A DNA stretch of 64,000 nt from Levilactobacillus tangyuanensis (GTDB taxonomy: Bacteria; Bacillota; Bacilli; Lactobacillales; Lactobacillaceae): the NCBI RefSeq assembly GCF_003946545.1, contig NZ_RHOA01000002.1, positions 248,001 to 312,000 of the forward strand, in the 5' to 3' direction. Shown one piece after another: positions 3,220-57,753 of the stretch. The notes below the pieces were generated by a model. The model searched no databases and was not told the origin of the DNA. It worked only from the letters and a program-made list of their open reading frames with translations. The stretch's first letter is position 1, and every line of letters begins with the position of its first letter. Made by a program: the position numbers and the translations under genes.

Positions 3220-3927
3220 CTAGAAAAATTGCCCGACATAATAGTGAATAAACATGGTAATGATCCCCACCACCACGTTACGAATAATGGCAGTCTTAAC
3301 CAGGCCATGGCCCAACTTGGCGCTAAGATAACCCGTCAGCGTCACGGATAGTAAAACCGCAACGATCGTCGCCGGCCATTGCGTTGCCGCCGGAAAGATC
3401 GTCATGGCAACCAGCGGGAAGGTCCCCCCGATCGCGGCCGCGAATAGGGATGAAAACGCGGCGTCCCAAGGATTCATGTAATGTCCCAATTGGATGTCAT
3501 CCTTCACGTTGACGACCGTTCCCAAGGCGTCCTTGTTCATCAGATCTTCCGCAATGGCCTCGGCAGTAGCCGTGGTGACACCACGCTCCTCATAGAAATG
3601 ACGCACGGCCGCCTGTTGGTCGGCGTAATTGGTCTTTAAAAGGGCGGCTTCCTTAGCCACCGCGGCCTTTTCGGTATCCTTCTGCGTGCTAACCGAGGCG
3701 TACTCCCCGGATGCCATGGAGAAGGCACAGGCCAACAGGTCTGCCAGTCCAGCAATGAAGATGGTAAATTGATTGGTGGTCGCCGCGGCAACACTGAACA
3801 ATACCCCAACGACGGTCAGAATCCCGTCGTTTGAACCCAACACACCGGCTCGCAAGGTATTTAACTTTTCGTCCATGGTTTGATGTTGCTTAACTTTCTT
3901 AACCCGAATATTCTCGTTTTCTGCCAT
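3220..3927 (-). CDS. VIT1/CCC1 family transporter, copy 1
   Basis: A 235-residue protein. Its first membrane segment is preceded by LRAGVLGSNDGILTVVGVLFSVAAA, the hallmark of the VIT/CCC1 family, and FSMASGEYASVSTQKD follows in the second; both hold metal-binding and Pro/Gly-rich turns. A cytoplasmic helical region (residues ~90-150) and three C-terminal membrane helices complete the fold. The family exports or sequesters Fe2+/Mn2+. It is the second gene of a tandem pair, 12 bp after its paralogue, and the pair is divergent from a PerR-like regulator, which suggests a role in iron detoxification. Confidence 0.88.
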   Translation of the reverse strand: MAENENIRVKKVKQHQTMDEKLNTLRAGVLGSNDGILTVVGVLFSVAAATTNQFTIFIAGLADLLACAFSMASGEYASVSTQKDTEKAAVAKEAALLKTNYADQQAAVRHFYEERGVTTATAEAIAEDLMNKDALGTVVNVKDDIQLGHYMNPWDAAFSSLFAAAIGGTFPLVAMTIFPAATQWPATIVAVLLSVTLTGYLSAKLGHGLVKTAIIRNVVVGIITMFIHYYVGQFF

Positions 3928-13338: not shown

Positions 13339-15297
13339 ATGCGACTTAATCATTTTACGTCTGATACAGCAGCCGGAGGGGCCACCAAGGACTTCCCGGT
13401 AAACGACCAGCAACTGACTCAAGACTTGTATGACGCCGTGAACGGTGCCTGGGCGGACCAGGCCACCATTCCCGGTGACCATGCGTCAACCGGTGGTTTC
13501 ATGGACTTGGTTGATAACATCGAAAAGACTCTGATGACTGACTTTAGCGACCTGCTAGCCGGCAAAATGACGCCCGCTAACGATGAAATGGCCGCCTTCA
13601 AACGACTCTACGCCCAAGCCAGCGACTTCAAGCAACGGGAAGCCACCGGAACGGCGCCCCTGAAGCCCTACCTTGACCGCATCACGGCCTTAACCGATCT
13701 CGATGACCTGAACCGTCACTTGGTTGACTTCATCAAGGTCGGTCTCCCAACGCCAATTGAGTTTGGCGTGGAACCCGACATGAAGGATACCAGCAACTAT
13801 GCGTTGTACCTAGATGCTCCTAACCTCTTCTTGCCCGACAAGACCTACTACGAAAAGGACAATCAGGCGGCGGCACAACTCATGCCAATCTTTACCACCA
13901 CGGCAGAGAAACTGTTAGGGATGGTCGGTTACACCAGTGATGACGCCCAAAAGATTGTGGCGGACGCCAAGGCCTTTGATGCCAAGATTGCCCCTCACGT
14001 CAAGTCTTCCGAGGAAGCCGCAGACTATGTCAAGGTTTATAACCCCCGGGAAACCAGTGCTGTGGCCAAACAGGTGACACATTTGGACTTAACGGGAACC
14101 ATTAAGGCCCTGTTAGGCGACGTGCCCGAGCAATCTATCCTGCCACAACCAATCTTCTTTGATGCCACCAATGACCTGATCACGCCTGCTAACTTTGACC
14201 TGATCAAGCACTGGATGCTCGTGAAGACGGTCTTTGATGGGACCGGCGCCTTGACGGAAGACTTCCGCCAAGTTGGTGGGACCTACCGTCGGGCGCTATC
14301 CGGCCAAAAGCAGGCACGTTCCAAGGAAAAGGCGGCCTTCTACCTGGCTACCGGAACCTTCTCCCAAGTCGTTGGTGACTACTACGGCCGGAAATACTTC
14401 GGCGAAGCCGCCAAGGCCGACGTTCGCAAGATGGTCCTAAAGATGACGCACGTTTACCAACAACGCCTGAAGGCCAACGATTGGCTCAGCACCGCCACCA
14501 GCGAGAAGGCCATCGTTAAGCTGCAAAAGCTGACGATTAAGGTTGGTTACCCGGACGCCATCGACCCACTCTACCGCAAGTACCGGGTCGATCCCGACAA
14601 GTCATTGTTCGATAACCTGCAGGCCATCAGCGAAGTCGCCATTCAAAACTATTACGGCCACTGGGGCAAGCCCGTCGATCGCGAGCGCTGGGACATGAGT
14701 GCCAACACGGTTAACGCCTACTACTCCCCATCCAACAACGAGATTGTCTTCCCGGCTGCCATCTTACAGGCACCGTTCTACAGCCTGGACCAATCCAGTA
14801 GCGCCAACTATGGCGGGATTGGAGCCGTCATCGCCCACGAAATCTCTCACGCCTTTGACAACAACGGGTCACAATTCGACGAATTCGGGAATCTAAACAA
14901 TTGGTGGACGGATGCCGACCTGGAATACTTCCAAGGCCTGTCCAAGGCCATGATTAACGAATTCGATGGCATCGAGTTCGCCGGCCAAAAGGTTAACGGG
15001 AAGCTCACGGTTTCCGAAAACATTGCCGATGCCGGCGGGCTGAGCTGCGCGCTCGAGGCCGCCAAGTCGGCCGATGACGTCGACCTGCGGGCCTTCTTCA
15101 TCAACTGGGCCAACGTCTGGCGGATGAAGGCCACCACGGAATACATGCAACTCCTGTTGTCGATCGATGTTCACGCGCCTGCTAAATTGCGGGCCAACGT
15201 GCAGGTCAAGAACCTCGACGACTTCTACACGACATTTAACGTGCAACCGGACGATGCCATGTATCTGGCTCCTGCAGACCGGGTTAAAATTTGGTAG
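13339..15297 (+). CDS. pepO: Neutral endopeptidase PepO (M13 family)
   Basis: 652 residues, near the usual M13 length of about 630. Zinc motif HEISH at ~residue 505 (VIAHEISHAFDNNGSQFD), second motif ENIADAGG at ~560, and substrate-binding NAYYSPSNNEIVFPAAIL at ~460 are all intact. No signal peptide is seen, so it is cytoplasmic and cuts oligopeptides during casein-type peptide use, as known for lactic acid bacteria. It starts at ATG after AGGAGG. Codon bias is strong. A structured element of the family described here lies directly after its stop. Confidence 0.93.
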   Translation: MRLNHFTSDTAAGGATKDFPVNDQQLTQDLYDAVNGAWADQATIPGDHASTGGFMDLVDNIEKTLMTDFSDLLAGKMTPANDEMAAFKRLYAQASDFKQREATGTAPLKPYLDRITALTDLDDLNRHLVDFIKVGLPTPIEFGVEPDMKDTSNYALYLDAPNLFLPDKTYYEKDNQAAAQLMPIFTTTAEKLLGMVGYTSDDAQKIVADAKAFDAKIAPHVKSSEEAADYVKVYNPRETSAVAKQVTHLDLTGTIKALLGDVPEQSILPQPIFFDATNDLITPANFDLIKHWMLVKTVFDGTGALTEDFRQVGGTYRRALSGQKQARSKEKAAFYLATGTFSQVVGDYYGRKYFGEAAKADVRKMVLKMTHVYQQRLKANDWLSTATSEKAIVKLQKLTIKVGYPDAIDPLYRKYRVDPDKSLFDNLQAISEVAIQNYYGHWGKPVDRERWDMSANTVNAYYSPSNNEIVFPAAILQAPFYSLDQSSSANYGGIGAVIAHEISHAFDNNGSQFDEFGNLNNWWTDADLEYFQGLSKAMINEFDGIEFAGQKVNGKLTVSENIADAGGLSCALEAAKSADDVDLRAFFINWANVWRMKATTEYMQLLLSIDVHAPAKLRANVQVKNLDDFYTTFNVQPDDAMYLAPADRVKIW

Positions 15298-15320: not shown

Positions 15321-15502
15321 GTCCGCCTTCGGCCACCAGGAGCGGTCGCCATGGGAACCGCCCGAAGCCGGTAAACCACCGTCTTCCGGCTCGACTTGAA
15401 GCCGAGAATTTCACTCGTCTCCAAGCTCGTTCCGCGCTGTAAGGTGAGACAGTTCCTCACCTAACACCGCCACCACCGCTGACCTCTCCTGGCGGCCTAC
15501 GG
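15321..15502 (+). ncRNA. Candidate structured-RNA element, copy A (3' side of pepO)
   Basis: Closing helix GGCCACCAGGAG (15331-15342) pairs with CTCCTGGCGGCC (15486-15497), 11 of 12 pairs; GCGGT (15342-15346) pairs with ACCGC (15475-15479). Hairpin 1 (15362-15389) has GCC-loop-GTC inside a CCGAA/TTCCGG stem, with loop GGTAAACCACC. Hairpin 2 (15395-15425) ends in the 7-nt loop AATTTCA. A third hairpin AGGTGAG/CTCACCT (15442-15462) sits between TGTA and TAACACC. It lies between the pepO stop and a strong terminator, so it would form part of the pepO 3' UTR. The 379-bp gap holds no gene. Confidence 0.55.
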
Positions 15503-15571
15503 CTCAGATTGGTAGACATTCACCAAATTAAGATATCGAGCTAACTAGCTGGTTAGCCTCAACTGCACCAA

Positions 15572-28818: not shown

Positions 28819-29784
28819 ATGTCAAAACCAGAACTATGGGTCGTCGCTGAACGGCGGCTCGACCACATCGAACCCACGACCCAACAGCTGATCACCAAGG
28901 CCAAGCACCTTGCTGGCAACCAAATGCATACCGTTGCGGTCCTCTTTGAAGCCACGACGGACCACTTGGAAGACGAACTCAAGGCGTACGGTCCGGATGA
29001 AATCCGGATCGTCAAGGATGACCGTTTCCCAACGGCCACCGATGCCGAAATCGCCGATGCCCTGCAACAACTCGTCACCGCTAACGAGCCCAACTCAATT
29101 CTGTTTGGCGCCACCATCACGGGCCGTTCCATTGCGCCGCGACTGCAGGCCAAGCTCCAAACCGGCTTGACGGCGGACTGTTTAGACCTCCGTTTTGATG
29201 ACGACACCCTGGTGGCCACCAAGCCCTCCTATGGGGACAACATCATGTGTGAAATTATCTGTCCGGATCACCGCCCACAAATGGCCACGGTTCGGCCCAA
29301 CACCTTTGTCGCCGAACCCGCCGATGGTGCCGCAACCGTCACGAGTTCAACCATCACCTTCCATCCCGTTGACCGCCTACAAGTAAAGACCGCGACGCCA
29401 GTCGTTAACACGGCGACAACGGTCGGCGATGCCAGTCGCGTGGTTGCCTTAGGTCGTGGCGCTGCCAGTGCCGCAACCATCAGCACGGCCACCAAGCTTG
29501 CCGAAAAGTTAGGCGGCCGAATTGGGGTTTCCCGGCCATTAACCGACCAAGAACGCTTCACGCATGACGACCAAATTGGTCAGAGTGGGAACACGATTCA
29601 TCCCGAACTCATTCTGAATTTTGGGATCAGTGGCGCCGTACAATTCCTAGTCGGCATGCAGGATTCCCAGACCATCGTGGCCGTCAATTCGGACCCCGAT
29701 GCACCAATCTTCGATGTTGCCGACTATGGCTACGTCGGCGATGCCACCGCTTTCATGACGGCCTTACTTGCTCAATTTAATTAA
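28819..29784 (+). CDS. etfA: Electron transfer flavoprotein alpha subunit
   Basis: 321 residues; start behind AAGGAGG, 13 bp after etfB. The C-terminal FAD domain is clear: VVALGRGAASAATISTATKLAEKLGGRIGVSRPLTD, SGAVQFLVGMQDSQTIVAVNSDPDAPIFDVADYGYVGD. It is the last gene of the operon, and a structured element of the family described here begins right after its stop. Confidence 0.93.
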   Translation: MSKPELWVVAERRLDHIEPTTQQLITKAKHLAGNQMHTVAVLFEATTDHLEDELKAYGPDEIRIVKDDRFPTATDAEIADALQQLVTANEPNSILFGATITGRSIAPRLQAKLQTGLTADCLDLRFDDDTLVATKPSYGDNIMCEIICPDHRPQMATVRPNTFVAEPADGAATVTSSTITFHPVDRLQVKTATPVVNTATTVGDASRVVALGRGAASAATISTATKLAEKLGGRIGVSRPLTDQERFTHDDQIGQSGNTIHPELILNFGISGAVQFLVGMQDSQTIVAVNSDPDAPIFDVADYGYVGDATAFMTALLAQFN

Positions 29785-29801: not shown

Positions 29802-29958
29802 GGCGGACGACGTCCGCCGAGGGCGTGGCCTTGACGGGCTGGAACGCCGTGGGCACAGCTTTGAGCCAGGTAACGTCTCAAAGGCTGGCCTTTCTCTAGG
29901 CCCGGTAACCCACCGGTCCAAGAGAAACGACACGGCTGAGCCCCGGCCACACCCTCGG
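29802..29958 (+). ncRNA. Candidate structured-RNA element, copy C (3' side of etfA)
   Basis: Helix CCGAGGGCGTGGCC (29817-29830) pairs with GGCCACACCCTCGG (29945-29958), 13 of 14; GGGCT/AGCCC (29836-29840, 29939-29943) and GCCGTG/CACGGC (29846-29851, 29931-29936) continue it inward. It encloses two GCC/GTC hairpins: 29859-29883 (CTTTGA/TCAAAG, loop AGGTAAC) and 29891-29927 (TTTCTCT/AGAGAAA, loop CGGTAACCCACCG). A small hairpin GGCGGAC/GTCCGCC precedes. The AANTYCA hairpin seen in the others is replaced by the second GCC/GTC hairpin. The 577-bp gap 29785-30361 holds no gene. Confidence 0.6.
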
Positions 29959-30015
29959 CTCACCATTAGTCGTTGTCATGCCCAAAAGGTAAGAGAATAA
30001 AACAACAGACCATAA

Positions 30016-30070
30016 AAATATACCTACCGGATGTATGAAACATTTCATACATCCGGCAGGTATATTTATT
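30016..30070. terminator. Bidirectional terminator between etfA and pckA
   Basis: ATATACCTACCGGATGTATG pairs with its complement over about 22 bp (one mismatch), with A/T runs on both sides. Confidence 0.85.
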
Positions 30071-30222
30071 TAGTCTCAATTGATTAAATCGCGGAACTAA
30101 GGGCAGCCATTATGCCCTCCCCCAGCTCATCATCCACCATCGCCTAACAAAGGCCAGCCGCACGACCGACGGCCCCGTTCACTTAACCATCCCAATCAGA
30201 ACGGTAAATATCAGTGACCAGA

Positions 30223-30345
30223 GGTGGGCGAGGCTCAGTGGTGACATTGCCTTAGCGAGTGGATTTCTCGCTTAGACAACGCCGGCTTGGGAGACCGCTT
30301 TTCGGCTCCCAAACGAGCGCACCACGTTCCATCCTCTAGCCCACC
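30223..30345 (-). ncRNA. Candidate structured-RNA element, copy D (3' side of pckA, minus strand)
   Basis: Closing helix GGTGGGC (30223-30229) and GAGG (30230-30233) pair with GCCCACC (30339-30345) and CCTC (30333-30336); GGTG/CACC (30240-30243, 30320-30323) continues it. Read on the minus strand, hairpin 1 (30287-30312) is TTGGGA-GCC-GAAAAGCG-GTC-TCCCAA, and hairpin 2 (30254-30272) is an AGCGAG/CTCGCT stem with loop AAATCCA. Further hairpins follow (CCGTTC/GAACGG, AGGGCA/TGCCCT) before the terminator. It begins 16 nt after the pckA stop. Confidence 0.6.
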
Positions 30346-30361
30346 GCCGGGAGCGACCAGT

Positions 30362-32080
30362 TTACAGGTCGAGCAGGACCTTCAGTAGTGCACGAGCGGA
30401 TTCGTTCAGCTTGTCTTGTGACTTGTCGTTGCCAAGGTGGGTGTAAATCTCACCGACGTAGACATCGTCCTTGAACAACCGATCGAAGACCTTGTCGATA
30501 ATTGGCCGCGTCGCCGCCTCTTCCTGAACGGGTCCAAATGGATTGGCGAAGAAGGTGGTGCTCATTCCCACTTCATCGGTGGTGCCAAGGGCGCGCCGCT
30601 TACCGGCAATGAAGGTGTCCTTGGCGGTTGCTTCATCCGCAAACCGGTGAATGCCGACCGCGTCATCGTAGTTATTGGCATAGACCCACATGTCGATTTC
30701 ATGATGGGCAACGACCCGTGGCCAACTGTTAGCCGGAATAATCACCCGGGCATTCTTTTGTTCCGGATTCATGTAGATCCCCCGGTCCATGTTGTTGAAG
30801 GCCACTTCACTACTCAGGTCATCCAGCCGGACAAACGCCCCGGTTTCGGTCCCTTGAGCGTAGAGCTTCCCGTCTTCCAGGCTGAAGCTCCCCATGTCGT
30901 CGAAGATGGTTTCGATGTTCACAATCTCGTCATCCGCCACGGTTTGTAAAGCCTCGATGGACTCGGACTTTCCGGCACCAGAATCACCGAAGAAGACCAC
31001 GGTCTTGGTCTTACCATTGGTAAAGGTAATCTTGACCATTGACCCATGAATTGGCAACTTGTGCTTAGAAATCATGTGCAGGTTATGCAGCGTCAAACAC
31101 ATCTTCTTCATGTAGCCGAAGTAGGTCGTGTCGTCATTGTATGGCACTTGGCCCACGTACAGATCGTTTTCGGCATCATAGAAGTAATGGCCGTTAGCTG
31201 GTTGGTCATCACCTTCAGAACCCGGCGTCCCAAACATCAGCACCAGATCCGGCTTATGATTCTCAATCCGGGCATGGTCGGCTAGCTTGAACAGGTTGGC
31301 CAAGGCCATCCCCGAAGCCAGATAATCTCGGTGGAAGTAGATATAAGCCAGGCTCTCACCAATCATAGCTGGGTAGCAGAACCAATCGTCCTTCGTCCCG
31401 GTGAAATGTTCGATGGGATTGGTTGCGGTTGGGGTAAAGTGCCCCTTGCGCTTGTTACTCTTGGTATGCAGCATCATTGGCGGCCGCAGCATCAGACGAC
31501 TCATGAAGCGGATGTCCCGCAGGTCTTCGTAGCCCGCTGGCACTGGCCAGTTAATCTTTTGTAAGAGGACACACGCACTGGACCCCGCGTTCACTTGACG
31601 GTAAACGTGGTTGGCATGCCCCTGTAGTTTTTCTTCAATCTGCCGGTACAAGCGAATAACCAAATTATTAAATCGTTGGTCAATCGTCATGAATTCCGCA
31701 CTAACAACATCGTTATGCTTAACGGTCATCGTGGCCACCCGCAGGTAGGCCCGGTAGTAAGTGTACAAGGCTTCAATACTGGCCAAAATTTCGGCCGGTT
31801 GGTATTGCGCGTACGCATCCGGACTATCAGTCAGGATCGCCTTCACCGTGGCCAAATAGGTTTCTGGCGATACCAGGTTAAACGTATCCTTCGCCTCGGC
31901 ATCCTCGGGCGTCTTATCTCGTTGTTCCTTTAAGAATAAGCGAACGAACGCTGCTAGTTCCTCGCTGTTGACGAGATCAAAAATATTGGTAATGAAGTGT
32001 GCATTGAAGTTCAGCACGGCCACATTGCGGTCTGGGTTGGCATAGAAGGATGCCAAGTCAATCGCATTTGTTTTTTCCAT
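30362..32080 (-). CDS. pckA: Phosphoenolpyruvate carboxykinase-like protein
   Basis: 572 residues with a P-loop VVFFGDSGAGKSESIEAL (~residue 355) followed by an acidic metal-binding stretch IFDDMGSF and GTETGAFVRLDD. A C-terminal region has ANPFGPVQ. Its arrangement, N-terminal domain then kinase-type P-loop then mobile lid, fits the PEP carboxykinase fold, and lactobacilli carry a divergent pckA of this size. It would interconvert oxaloacetate and PEP. The first ~230 residues lack classic PckA motifs, so the assignment is moderate. Monocistronic. Confidence 0.65.
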   Translation of the reverse strand: MEKTNAIDLASFYANPDRNVAVLNFNAHFITNIFDLVNSEELAAFVRLFLKEQRDKTPEDAEAKDTFNLVSPETYLATVKAILTDSPDAYAQYQPAEILASIEALYTYYRAYLRVATMTVKHNDVVSAEFMTIDQRFNNLVIRLYRQIEEKLQGHANHVYRQVNAGSSACVLLQKINWPVPAGYEDLRDIRFMSRLMLRPPMMLHTKSNKRKGHFTPTATNPIEHFTGTKDDWFCYPAMIGESLAYIYFHRDYLASGMALANLFKLADHARIENHKPDLVLMFGTPGSEGDDQPANGHYFYDAENDLYVGQVPYNDDTTYFGYMKKMCLTLHNLHMISKHKLPIHGSMVKITFTNGKTKTVVFFGDSGAGKSESIEALQTVADDEIVNIETIFDDMGSFSLEDGKLYAQGTETGAFVRLDDLSSEVAFNNMDRGIYMNPEQKNARVIIPANSWPRVVAHHEIDMWVYANNYDDAVGIHRFADEATAKDTFIAGKRRALGTTDEVGMSTTFFANPFGPVQEEAATRPIIDKVFDRLFKDDVYVGEIYTHLGNDKSQDKLNESARALLKVLLDL

Positions 32081-50915: not shown

Positions 50916-50950
50916 AAAAAAGCCATCGACACACCGTCGATGGCTTTCTT
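50916..50950 (-). terminator. Terminator of cold shock gene
   Basis: AAAGCCATCGAC pairs with GTCGATGGCTTT around ACACC, with A/T runs on both sides. Confidence 0.88.
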
Positions 50951-50972
50951 AAACTCGATTTAGGCTAATAAA

Positions 50973-51176
50973 TTAGTCGACAACCGAAACGTTAGCAGCT
51001 TGTGGGCCACGGTCGCCTTGTTCTACATCAAGGGATACGTGTTGGCCTTCTTCAAGAGTCTTGAAGCCTTCACTGTTGATAGCAGAGAAGTGAACGAAAA
51101 CGTCTGAGCCGTTTTCCAAAGTGATGAAGCCGTAACCTTTATCAGCGTTGAACCATTTAACAGTACCTTGTTCCAT
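50973..51176 (-). CDS. Cold shock protein CspA family
   Basis: 67 residues, full length. [21 protein letters not shown] with RNP-1 KGYGFI, then RNP-2 DVFVHFSAI. It binds RNA and acts as an RNA chaperone at low temperature. Start at ATG 51176 behind GGAGG. A long leader (about 130-150 nt) lies upstream. Confidence 0.96.
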
Positions 51177-51326
51177 AAGAATGAAACCTCCGTGCGCATA
51201 GCGCAATAATATTTGCATTTGAAAGCTGGGGTCAAAGGAGCCATTCTTAAAGAACGTCGAGCCTTTAAAACTTCCGAACCATAAATACATTATCCATAGG
51301 ATACCAGGTATTCGGCAGAATAGCAA
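51177..51326 (-). promoter_or_regulatory. Promoter and long leader of cold shock gene
   Basis: On the minus strand TTGCTA (51321-51326), 17-bp spacer and TATCCT (51298-51303) form a sigmaA-like promoter. This gives a leader of about 115 nt before the start, with self-complementary stretches, as expected for thermosensing csp leaders. No other gene lies here. Confidence 0.55.
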
Positions 51327-55396: not shown

Positions 55397-55434
55397 ACCC
55401 CGTCAGCATCTTTGCTGGCGAGGTTTTTGTTTTT
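55397..55434 (+). terminator. oppA terminator
   Basis: ACCCCGTCAGC pairs with GCTGGCGAGGT (mismatches) around ATCTTT, followed by TTTTTGTTTTTG. Confidence 0.8.
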
Positions 55435-55450: not shown

Positions 55451-55624
55451 GACCGCCGACGGCGGTCAGGGGCTGCGTCCTATGGGGTCCGTCCAGAGCC
55501 AAAGAGCGGTCTCTGGACTCGCCTTTAATCCCCACAAAGCCCGTGGTTATCAAAGGTCGACCCGTGCTGTAAGGCCGGAATTCCACCGCCCTAACACCAC
55601 TTTCACAGGACTCCGCCCCTGACC
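55451..55624 (+). ncRNA. Candidate structured-RNA element, copy B (3' side of oppA)
   Basis: Closing helix GGTCAGGGG (55464-55472) pairs perfectly with CCCCTGACC (55616-55624), preceded by the hairpin-like ACCGCCGACGGCGGT. GTCC/GGAC continues it. Hairpin 1 (55491-55518) is TCCAGA-GCC-AAAGAGCG-GTC-TCTGGA, enclosed by GGGG/CCCC. Hairpin 2 (55570-55594) is TAA, a GG-CGG/CCG-CC stem and the 7-nt loop AATTCCA, then CTAA. A linear AGCCCGTG ... CCCGTG motif is shared with copies E. The 1015-bp gap 55393-56407 holds no gene. Confidence 0.6.
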
Positions 55625-55953
55625 ACCTCTGGCTAAAACTTTCCGAAGACACCAGACCAACCACTAAAGTCAAAGCCCTGGCGAGACTACATCTCCAACT
55701 TTCTGCCAAGCCACATGTGCCCAGCAAAAAGTGTCGAGCTGTTCGTCACACTGCCCAATCTCAAATTGGAAGCTCCATATGACGTGGGTACACGGGCTAA
55801 GTTAAGCAACTGGATCCGATGCCATCACAGTTGCCAGCCCATTTATTACTTGCCTTAGCCGACCCAATTATCCACCACAAGTTGTCGACCAGCAATTCGT
55901 GCCATATGGCTGTGATAGCCTATTGAGAAATCCGCTAACAATTTCAAGCCGAA

Positions 55954-56116
55954 GGCGGCCAGACAGAGCCCCGTGACGGTGGCGTTGACCGGGTGGGCCT
56001 TCCGGTTTAGGCCACGGGCCAGGCGACTAGACCCACGGGTTGGGTGTGGCTGGTTGCTGCCCTGAAGACCGCTTCTCAGGCTTCAGGTCTGCCCCACAGG
56101 ATGGCGGCTGGCCACT
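55954..56116 (-). ncRNA. Candidate structured-RNA element, copy E1
   Basis: Same layout as E2: hairpin 1 at 56061-56087 (minus strand CCTGAA-GCC-TGAGAAGCG-GTC-TTCAGG) identical to E2; hairpin 2 is kept with small changes. Its closing helix (55954-55964 with 56106-56116) has only 8 of 11 pairs, so it may be decaying. Downstream, 55641-55860 holds other small hairpins but no clear further copy. Confidence 0.5.
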
Positions 56117-56214
56117 GTGGCGACCCAATCATCCACCACAAGTTGCCGACCGGCAATTCGTGCCATATGGCTGTGATAGCGTATTGAGAAATCCGCTAAC
56201 AATTTCAAGCCGAA

Positions 56215-56377
56215 GGCGGCCAGACAGAGCCCCGTGACGGTGGCGTTGACCGGGTGGACTTCCCGGTTTAGGCCACGGGCCAGGCTACCAGACTCACGGG
56301 CTAGGTGTGGCTGGTTGCTGCCCTGAAGACCGCTTCTCAGGCTTCAGGTCTGCCCCACAGGGCGGCGTCTGGCCGCC
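56215..56377 (-). ncRNA. Candidate structured-RNA element, copy E2 (3' side of 103-residue gene)
   Basis: Closing helix GGCGGCCAGAC (56215-56225) pairs perfectly with GTCTGGCCGCC (56367-56377). TGTGG/CCACA (56306-56310, 56355-56359) encloses hairpin 1 (56322-56348): minus strand CCTGAA-GCC-TGAGAAGCG-GTC-TTCAGG. Hairpin 2 (56246-56270) is TAA, stem ACCGGG/CCCGGT, loop AAGTCCA. It begins 30 nt after the stop of the gene at 56408. Confidence 0.6.
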
Positions 56378-56407
56378 GTAGGCGACCTTCAATCTAGACC
56401 AAAGGAA

Positions 56408-56719
56408 TTAGCTCAAGGCCGCTGAAGCCTTTTTGACAACGGTGTCGCTGACGAATTCGCTGGTTAGCCGCTGCATTGGCGTGTAATCATGCCGTTTCTT
56501 AAACGGTACCGGTTCGGCAGCGATGACGGCCACCTTCAGATTGTTCTCGGTTAAGAAGATCTGCCCAACGCCTTGATACTTACCCTTGCTGTGCTTGCCA
56601 GTTCGCCAAGCATGGAGTTTGAACCCCCCGTCTGGCTCACGTTTGATTTCATACTCACCGGAAGCGTTGGCAACAACGGGCACGCCGGTGTATAGATTTA
56701 CCGCATATTGACCTTTCAT
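56408..56719 (-). CDS. Hypothetical protein, 103 residues, coupled to lplA
   Basis: MKGQYAVNLYTGVPVVANASGEYEIK..., then TENNLKVAVIAAEPVPFKKRHDYTPMQRL, ending KKASAALS. ATG 56719 overlaps the lplA stop by 4 bp, so it is co-translated. It looks like a small beta-rich globular protein with no known family. The link with lipoate ligase suggests a role in lipoylation or its control, which is inferred only from context. Confidence 0.65.
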   Translation of the reverse strand: MKGQYAVNLYTGVPVVANASGEYEIKREPDGGFKLHAWRTGKHSKGKYQGVGQIFLTENNLKVAVIAAEPVPFKKRHDYTPMQRLTSEFVSDTVVKKASAALS

Positions 56720-57753
56720 TCTGCTACCTCCGTTAAGGCTTGAACCAGGGGCTCGACACCATCCGAACCTAAGACAGCCATGACCGTCGGAACAGCCAGA
56801 ATCGGCCGAACGGCCGCCGGTGTCGCGGGCTGACCGACCAGTTGTTGGGCAATGCCCGCCAGTGCCGTCGGCGTCCCCACCGTGCCAAACAAGGCAACGG
56901 ATCGTAGCTGCTCGTTGTGCCGGGTAAAGTTGACGTGAAGCTGTCCGCTGGCCAGCTTCAACTGCCGGTATTCCCGAAAGCCGGGATTGGCGCCGTAATT
57001 CCAAGCATCCGTGGCATACTTTTCGGCCAGCCGCTGATCAATGACGGCCCAGTCGTGGTCGGTCAGATGATACGTTTCAATTTGATCGAGTCGGTCCACG
57101 TTAAAGATGTGGCAAAGTAAGGCCACACGAAAATCTTGGATGGAAAGATCCTGGTAGGCCGGCGCCAGATATTGGCGAAGGTTCGTGATCGACACGCGAT
57201 TGGAAGCCACGCCGGGATGACCGCCCTCGGCCGCAGGAATCAAGGCCGCATGGGCCGCCGCCACGTTAAGATCATACATGATGGTGCCACCGGCCGCGTA
57301 ACCATCCCCATTCTTAAACATGGTCATGCCGGAAAACTTCTGATCGCCGACCATGAGGGCACTCTTGTTACTGATGCCAAGATTATTGACACCCATGGCA
57401 GCTAGTGCCCTTAGAATCGGTTCCGCAAAGACCGTGTAATCACCAAAGGTCGACCCATCCTTAGGGTCCCCGTTGATGATATGCTCAAAGATTAAATTGC
57501 GCTCGTCGTGGTAAACCGCGCCCCCACCAGAAGTCCGCCGCACCAATTGAACCTGATTATCGGCAAGATACTTGAAATCCACCTCGGCCGTCACCGTTTG
57601 ATTAATCCCGACGATCACAGCGGGCCGGTTAACATACATCATGAGTCCGTGGCCTGGCAGCTTCAAATCATTCACCAAGTAATTATCGATGGACTGATTG
57701 ACCACCGCATCCGTGACAACTCTGCCGTGACGATTCGTATCGATCAGATACAT
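56716..57753 (-). CDS. lplA: Lipoate-protein ligase
   Basis: 345 residues from ATG 57753 behind AAGGGAG. The signature LVRRTSGGGAVYHDERNLIFE is at ~70 and the catalytic-lysine motif GDQKFSG at ~135. A C-terminal accessory domain follows (FTRHNEQLRSVALFG). It attaches lipoate to carrier proteins using ATP. It is divergent from a stand-alone lipoyl-domain protein, its probable substrate. Confidence 0.92.
   Translation of the reverse strand: MYLIDTNRHGRVVTDAVVNQSIDNYLVNDLKLPGHGLMMYVNRPAVIVGINQTVTAEVDFKYLADNQVQLVRRTSGGGAVYHDERNLIFEHIINGDPKDGSTFGDYTVFAEPILRALAAMGVNNLGISNKSALMVGDQKFSGMTMFKNGDGYAAGGTIMYDLNVAAAHAALIPAAEGGHPGVASNRVSITNLRQYLAPAYQDLSIQDFRVALLCHIFNVDRLDQIETYHLTDHDWAVIDQRLAEKYATDAWNYGANPGFREYRQLKLASGQLHVNFTRHNEQLRSVALFGTVGTPTALAGIAQQLVGQPATPAAVRPILAVPTVMAVLGSDGVEPLVQALTEVAE

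Follow-up and report, generated by a model that had tools for sequence, protein, structure and literature searches.

The window, a stretch of 64,000 nucleotides from Levilactobacillus tangyuanensis, contains six copies of a folding element, A, B, C, D, E1 and E2, together with the neighboring genes and hairpins listed in Table 1. Between the 3' end of element D and the end of the PEPCK-like gene lie ~8 nt. The palindrome located between C and D has the appearance of an intrinsic terminator working in both directions. A second hairpin, which resembles an intrinsic terminator with its T-run, separates the SBP_bac_5 gene from element B, and thus B need not belong to the mRNA of that gene. Three-unit clusters other than B-E1-E2 are also present in other places.

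Table 1. Coordinates of the elements and neighboring features in the window
Feature	Position	Strand	Description	Basis or score
M13 peptidase gene	13339-15297		Precedes element A	Pfam M13
Element A	15323-15505	-	Full form, without detected partner	R1, 114.4 bits
ETF-alpha gene	28819-29784		Precedes element C	Pfam ETF
Element C	29814-29961	-	Short form, doublet partner of D	R1, 49.5 bits
34-bp palindrome in C-D spacer	30007-30076		Inverted repeat I1	T-runs judged by eye
Element D	30215-30353	+	Short form, doublet partner of C	R1, 43 bits
PEPCK-like gene	30362-32080	-		Pfam PEPCK_ATP, barely above cut-off
cspA thermoregulator	50916-51275	-	Rfam match	85.5 bits
Terminator-like hairpin and T-run	55402-55434	+	SBP_bac_5 gene to element B	By eye
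Element B	55453-55635	-	Full form, left half of doublet	R1, 192 bits (in training set)
Hairpin P2 of B	55492-55517	-	Hairpin 1 of the original prediction	Conserved A.G mismatch, element strand
Hairpin P3 of B	55522-55556	-	Missing from the short form	
Hairpin P4 of B	55564-55599	-	Hairpin 2 of the original prediction	Conserved T.T mismatch, element strand
Element E1	55946-56123	+	Opposite orientation to B; nearly identical tandem copy of E2	R1, 127.4 bits
Element E2	56207-56385	+		R1, 162.3 bits (in training set)
ORF	56408-57004	-	ORF end at 56408 ~22 nt from 3' end of E2	

All six copies are matched by a single covariance model, R1, with E-values of 1.1e-51 to 1.8e-10. R1 was trained on 25 copies from the L. 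tangyuanensis genome, including B and E2; A, C, D and E1 are outside the training set, although E1 is 93% identical to the trained E2 over 259 nt as part of a tandem duplication in which the two copies start 261 nt apart. The untrained copies A, C and D are matched with E-values of 3.3e-30, 2.9e-12 and 1.8e-10, respectively. The recovery of every copy at its expected place by one model supports the original prediction that the six share a common plan. The predicted constituents of this plan, a closing helix, a GCC-loop-GTC hairpin and a hairpin with an AANTYCA loop, also stand, but their opposition in strand had been overlooked: the plus strand carries them in B, A and C, the minus strand in E1, E2 and D. 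The strand of the element model is minus for B, A and C and plus for E1, E2 and D. When single sequences are folded on the plus strand and compared with dinucleotide shuffles, B (z -5.1), A (z -6.1), C (z -5.3), D (z -4.2) and E2 (z -3.0) fold better than the shuffles, and E1 folded alone shows no gain (z -0.7).

A full unit is ~180 nt long and consists of a closing helix around three hairpins, which are arranged from 5' to 3' as P4, P3 and P2 on the modeled strand. The short form, which includes C and D, is ~140 nt long and has two hairpins. Judged by eye from the alignments, A.G mismatches recur in P2 and P3 and T.T mismatches in P4. Two-sided changes are found in 39 of 56 pairs. Across the 25 L. 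tangyuanensis copies, 94.9% of the cells are paired compared to 81.8% in shuffles, and 211 cells are two-sided compared to 60.6. None of 500 shuffles comes up to the real copies on any of five measures; because this alignment also served to predict the structure, the slid control leans towards it. The compensatory stem changes that had been described from the six copies are thus upheld on a set of 25. Beyond the unit, the conserved flank in L. tangyuanensis is limited to 5-6 nt per side and an A-rich 3' flank, and in genome G320 the spacer is partly common to the copies. As a separate observation, a same-locus element in two close species (L183 versus L185, about 3280-3445) appears by eye to have had one hairpin swapped for unrelated sequence.

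The usual state of the element is a divergent doublet between genes that often combines two sequence types (B with E) and directs both 3' ends outward. The named-genome sample of 64 stretches (59 Levilactobacillus and 5 Lactiplantibacillus) holds 159 unique units (169 of 181 rows), among which 54 neighbor pairs lie less than 800 nt apart. These pairs are predominantly -+ (42), with 7 --, 4 ++ and a single +- arrangement. The L. tangyuanensis genome presents the same picture (21 -+, 5 ++, 3 -- and 0 +- among 29 pairs), and all 5 gaps with two units in 400 kb of genome G030 are -+. A set of 53 -+ pairs, which takes in further units beyond these 159, comprises 28 B-E, 13 B-B and 2 E-E pairs and a remainder with short forms, type counts that are biased because the 64 stretches were picked by an E-type pattern.

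The units are extragenic. Only 3 of the 159 units overlap an ORF of at least 150 aa. In distances taken from simple ORF calls rather than from annotation, the 3' side is directed towards a gene 3' end in 81 units, 43 of them within 60 nt, and towards a gene 5' end in 61 units, with 15 at this distance or closer. A gene comes as close to the 5' side in 1 of 128 cases. The 18 units of G030 occupy 13 gaps. Tandem genes flank 7 of these, convergent genes 5 and divergent genes 1, compared to 142, 58 and 47, respectively, among all gaps of at least 30 nt; convergent gene pairs are not clearly favored as sites. A recognized terminator is found in the spacer of 10 of 53 doublets and ahead of the element on 18 of 106 sides. 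The units themselves were considered as intrinsic terminators, and this identity was rejected, given that a strict home-made detector finds a stem with a T-run in 1 and 5 of 106 elements on the two strands.

The L. tangyuanensis genome carries at least 72 distinct copies, a count obtained from the best 150 of 477 candidates (83 rows minus 10 opposite-strand echoes and one 45-nt match). The copies are strongly clustered, with 21 of the 72 on contig C32 (104 kb of 2.19 Mb) and 13 on contig C7 (45 kb). Of 35 Levilactobacillus genomes, 33 are matched by R1, and in most of them the best 76 candidates were scored. In the survey of the family, which applied strict filters and scored the best six candidates per genome, matches are present in at least 109 of 397 genomes and at least 11 of 40 genera, and the anticipated further copies in related genomes therefore exist. 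Genomes G012 and G025 have no element at E<=0.001 with R1, and G012 has none with model R2 either. G030 carries its 18 copies in 400 kb, a density that would correspond to over a hundred copies if it were even across the genome; on its contig C1, no copy is found in the first 140 kb and 13 of the 18 lie within 300-400 kb. Phages yielded no match with two queries, and matches to plasmids with five queries were restricted to two L. brevis plasmids. In one of these, NZ_CP103392.1 (L324 2501-2587), an annotated gene for a peptidylprolyl isomerase contains a partial 87-nt match in its 3' part.

At the sites that were compared between species, the folds are retained by evolution. Matching flanks are found for 41 of 49 same-locus unit pairs, and in these 41 comparisons, each counted in both directions, two-sided stem changes stay Watson-Crick in 88 of 93 cases; in slid-partner controls, the corresponding numbers are 13/37, 8/23 and 2/12. 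The same-locus units diverge by 10.8% at unpaired positions and, by arithmetic, about 5% at paired positions, and their flanks diverge by 10.5%. Because paired sites diverge less and unpaired sites diverge like the flanks, it is on average the fold, and not the unpaired sequence, that is kept. Pairing could in principle be kept without selection if one hairpin arm were corrected from the other as a template during replication. We consider such templated correction very improbable, since by reasoning correction alone would not be expected to slow change at individual stem sites, and paired sites show approximately half of the flank divergence. Moreover, the ratio of double to single changes rises with divergence, from 5:21 below 0.1 to 43:81 above, which resembles a two-step process, albeit in small numbers. 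The scarcity of G-U pairs and the transversion share of double changes (15/48), which is like that of the flanks (438/1252), would nevertheless suit a templated mechanism.

The PEPCK-like gene, which is present in all 34 genus genomes searched, offers a fixed locus of this kind. A unit with its 3' end towards the end of the gene is located within 350 nt in 13 of the 30 loci examined and within 30 nt in 7. Locus L186 was considered as an empty site and rejected as such, given that a remnant is kept there and the pckA-side element has undergone an internal deletion.

Does the retained fold act as RNA? The original prediction of an undescribed structured-RNA family holds with respect to a family of conserved structure, but its RNA nature is questionable in view of the dispersed inverted doublets on opposite strands and a G-U excess of ~1.5-fold. 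A conventional structured RNA, for example a protein-binding or processing element, would be encoded on the element strand, in antisense to the gene towards whose 3' end the unit is directed. Such an RNA could explain the conserved A.G and T.T mismatches and the better folding of the element strand than of the other strand in alifold (-83 versus -64 and -70 versus -54). It is also consistent with the excess of G-U over A-C, which amounts to 68:19 and 77:26 on element-strand-derived pairs, sets that favor G-U by construction, and to 61:36 (E) and 121:88 (B), or 182:124 family-wide, on pairs predicted from both strands. At fixed loci, without a strand-biased choice of pairs, the ratio is 70:48. 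The excess in unbiased pair sets is thus just about 1.5-fold, a point against a conventional RNA but not a decisive one. Ordinary structured RNAs exhibit a stronger preference for G-U over A-C; tRNAs and riboswitches are too scarce in the available DNA to provide a G-U control. Grouping 121 sequences by inferred transcription gives no clear split in G-U:A-C. The ratio is 25:11 with the element strand transcribed and 39:33 with the opposite strand transcribed, and it is 31:33 for units flanked by convergent genes, 16:15 for those flanked by divergent genes and 37:20 for those at the edge of a locus.

Further observations speak against a conventional RNA. Promoter-like sites that read into the unit from upstream are found in 35 of 193 cases, compared to 32.1 (sd 4.5) in shuffles, and a promoter of its own for each unit was therefore rejected. 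Two other counts exceed those of shuffles, namely upstream antisense sites with 43 and downstream sense sites with 33 against 22.7 (sd 4.0), and these are read as probable promoters of neighboring genes. In addition, doublet partners approach each other head to head to within 23 nt, and the unpaired positions diverge as quickly as the flanks. We therefore regard a conventional RNA on the element strand as unlikely. A 3'-UTR role of the units is possible because many of them adjoin gene ends.

Mobility represents another explanation, in which the doublet is a selfish or domesticated miniature mobile element that replicates as one unit, in the way proposed for REPINs, folds as single-stranded DNA and is moved by an enzyme, so that its structure would be needed for movement. 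In favor of mobility, units that look alike by eye are found in unrelated flanks within one genome. This is clear for G320 and G297 and less marked for G342, and in 4 of the 6 G320 copies the likeness spans the entire doublet. Likewise, the 31 full-length units of L. tangyuanensis in doublets or clusters outscore the 11 singlets (median 166 versus 114 bits, p 0.002), although R1 itself was built mostly from doublet and cluster members; the short forms show no such difference between 19 doublet or cluster members and 11 singlets (43 versus 48 bits, p 0.18). However, units at fixed loci keep their pairing from species to species, and none of the 4 gap matches among the loci compared is a clean empty site. 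The near-restriction of the elements to chromosomes, as judged from the phage and plasmid queries, is a further point against mobility. Y1_Tnp has no match in the L. tangyuanensis genome and is missing from 11 of 34 genus genomes (present in 23). An element is nearby in 3 of the 30 Y1_Tnp loci examined, and these 3 matches in 97 kb are close to the expectation from the density in G030 (18 in 400 kb). A RAYT/Y1 transposase as the mover is not supported, given this absence and the lack of element enrichment at Y1_Tnp loci. Around the G320 doublets, a AAAGGTTGAA-like stretch is common by eye to a few copies and is not a general terminal repeat. Taken together, a mobile element is a somewhat doubtful explanation.

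What could a divergent doublet accomplish at a gene end? As an inverted repeat, the doublet presents the same order, an antisense unit followed by a sense unit, to a transcript that arrives from either side. The doublet would thereby fold whichever way it is transcribed and may shield the 3' end of the upstream mRNA. It may also hinder readthrough between neighboring genes in genomes without Rho above the family cut-off. Since the doublet reads alike from both sides, a two-way gene-end barrier fits its orientation, its position and its near strand-symmetry. We thus tentatively propose, without assigning it an even chance, that the giant REPIN/BIME-like doublet functions as a strand-indifferent gene-end barrier. 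Rho (TIGR00767) is found above the cut-off in 0 of 34 genus genomes compared to 8 of 14 control genomes. Weaker matches to the Rho profile are present in all 34 genus genomes and, from the frame sizes, are probably F1-ATPase subunits. Rho is equally missing above the cut-off in the element-free genomes G012 and G025, and its link to the elements is thus only permissive. A more elaborate version of the barrier, which we consider distinctly improbable, would be a self-symmetric gene-end module that gives the transcripts from both sides a shared two-domain structured 3' region, so that one element serves two genes, and that has spread in a Rho-lacking bacterial family as a substitute curb on readthrough and antisense transcription.

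Each of these explanations has consequences beyond the locus. If gene ends or mRNA decay are under the control of doublets, the boundaries of many transcripts in such genomes are being read wrongly. If doublets are mobile, they are REPIN-like elements with a mover not yet named. The constraint at fixed loci opens their function to direct deletion tests.

Lactobacilli are widely used and sequenced, and a structured repeat at tens of copies per genome is absent from Rfam. No gathering-level match to the elements was obtained in the window or in the element-bearing G030 loci, in line with the original view of the element as undescribed; at E<=1, six loci gave seven Rfam matches, all far under the gathering score. 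Owing to their gene-end position, attC sites and group IIC introns are possible comparisons. The accessible portions of the open full-text literature, including PMC2267715, PMC8040213, PMC12306157, PMC2864571 and PMC6429828, do not contain a description of the family. The elements resemble Rfam families, including the Lactobacillales motifs, in being structured, covarying and intergenic, as far as the available text on those motifs describes them (PMC2864571).

The BOX, RUP and SPRITE repeats of Streptococcus pneumoniae are similar to the elements in that they are small, are scattered over a Lactobacillales genome and form extensive secondary structure, and the part of the source available states that they are thought likely to affect co-transcribed genes, are parasitic according to the authors and are nearly missing from other streptococci (PMC3049150). 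In contrast, the elements maintain their pairing at fixed loci and are distributed over at least 11 genera; the distinction is drawn from the partial description of the pneumococcal repeats.

The closest likeness in arrangement is to REP, BIME and REPIN sequences, which, as described in the available parts of the sources, are extragenic and of high copy number, form inverted doublets as hetero- and homodimers, and show compensatory hairpin changes, with singlets proposed as remnants (PMC3116915, PMC3733652, PMC2817692, PMC12306157). The occurrence of alike units in unrelated flanks in G320, G297 and G342 is also REPIN-like (PMC3116915, from the text available). The phyla listed for GTAG and CGTC repeats in the accessible text of PMC3733652 exclude Bacillota, while Bacillota genomes, Bacillus subtilis among them, do appear in the REP table of a study with a wider search of its own (PMC12306157, in the part available). 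The differences lie in the unit, in the tag and in the transposase. The unit here has ~180 nt, and its closing helix encloses several hairpins, compared to one 20-40 bp hairpin in the available descriptions of REP and REPIN. The GTAG/CGTC tag rule does not apply to the elements, given that GTAG near the 5' foot and CGTC at either foot occur in 20 and 9 of 153 cases, respectively. The RAYT (Y1_Tnp) association of GTAG-class REPINs is without counterpart in the Levilactobacillus elements. By unit size, tag or transposase, the elements are not REPIN members; in organization, they are REPIN/BIME-like, and they constitute an apparently hitherto undescribed, large family of folding intergenic repeats in Levilactobacillus and its relatives.
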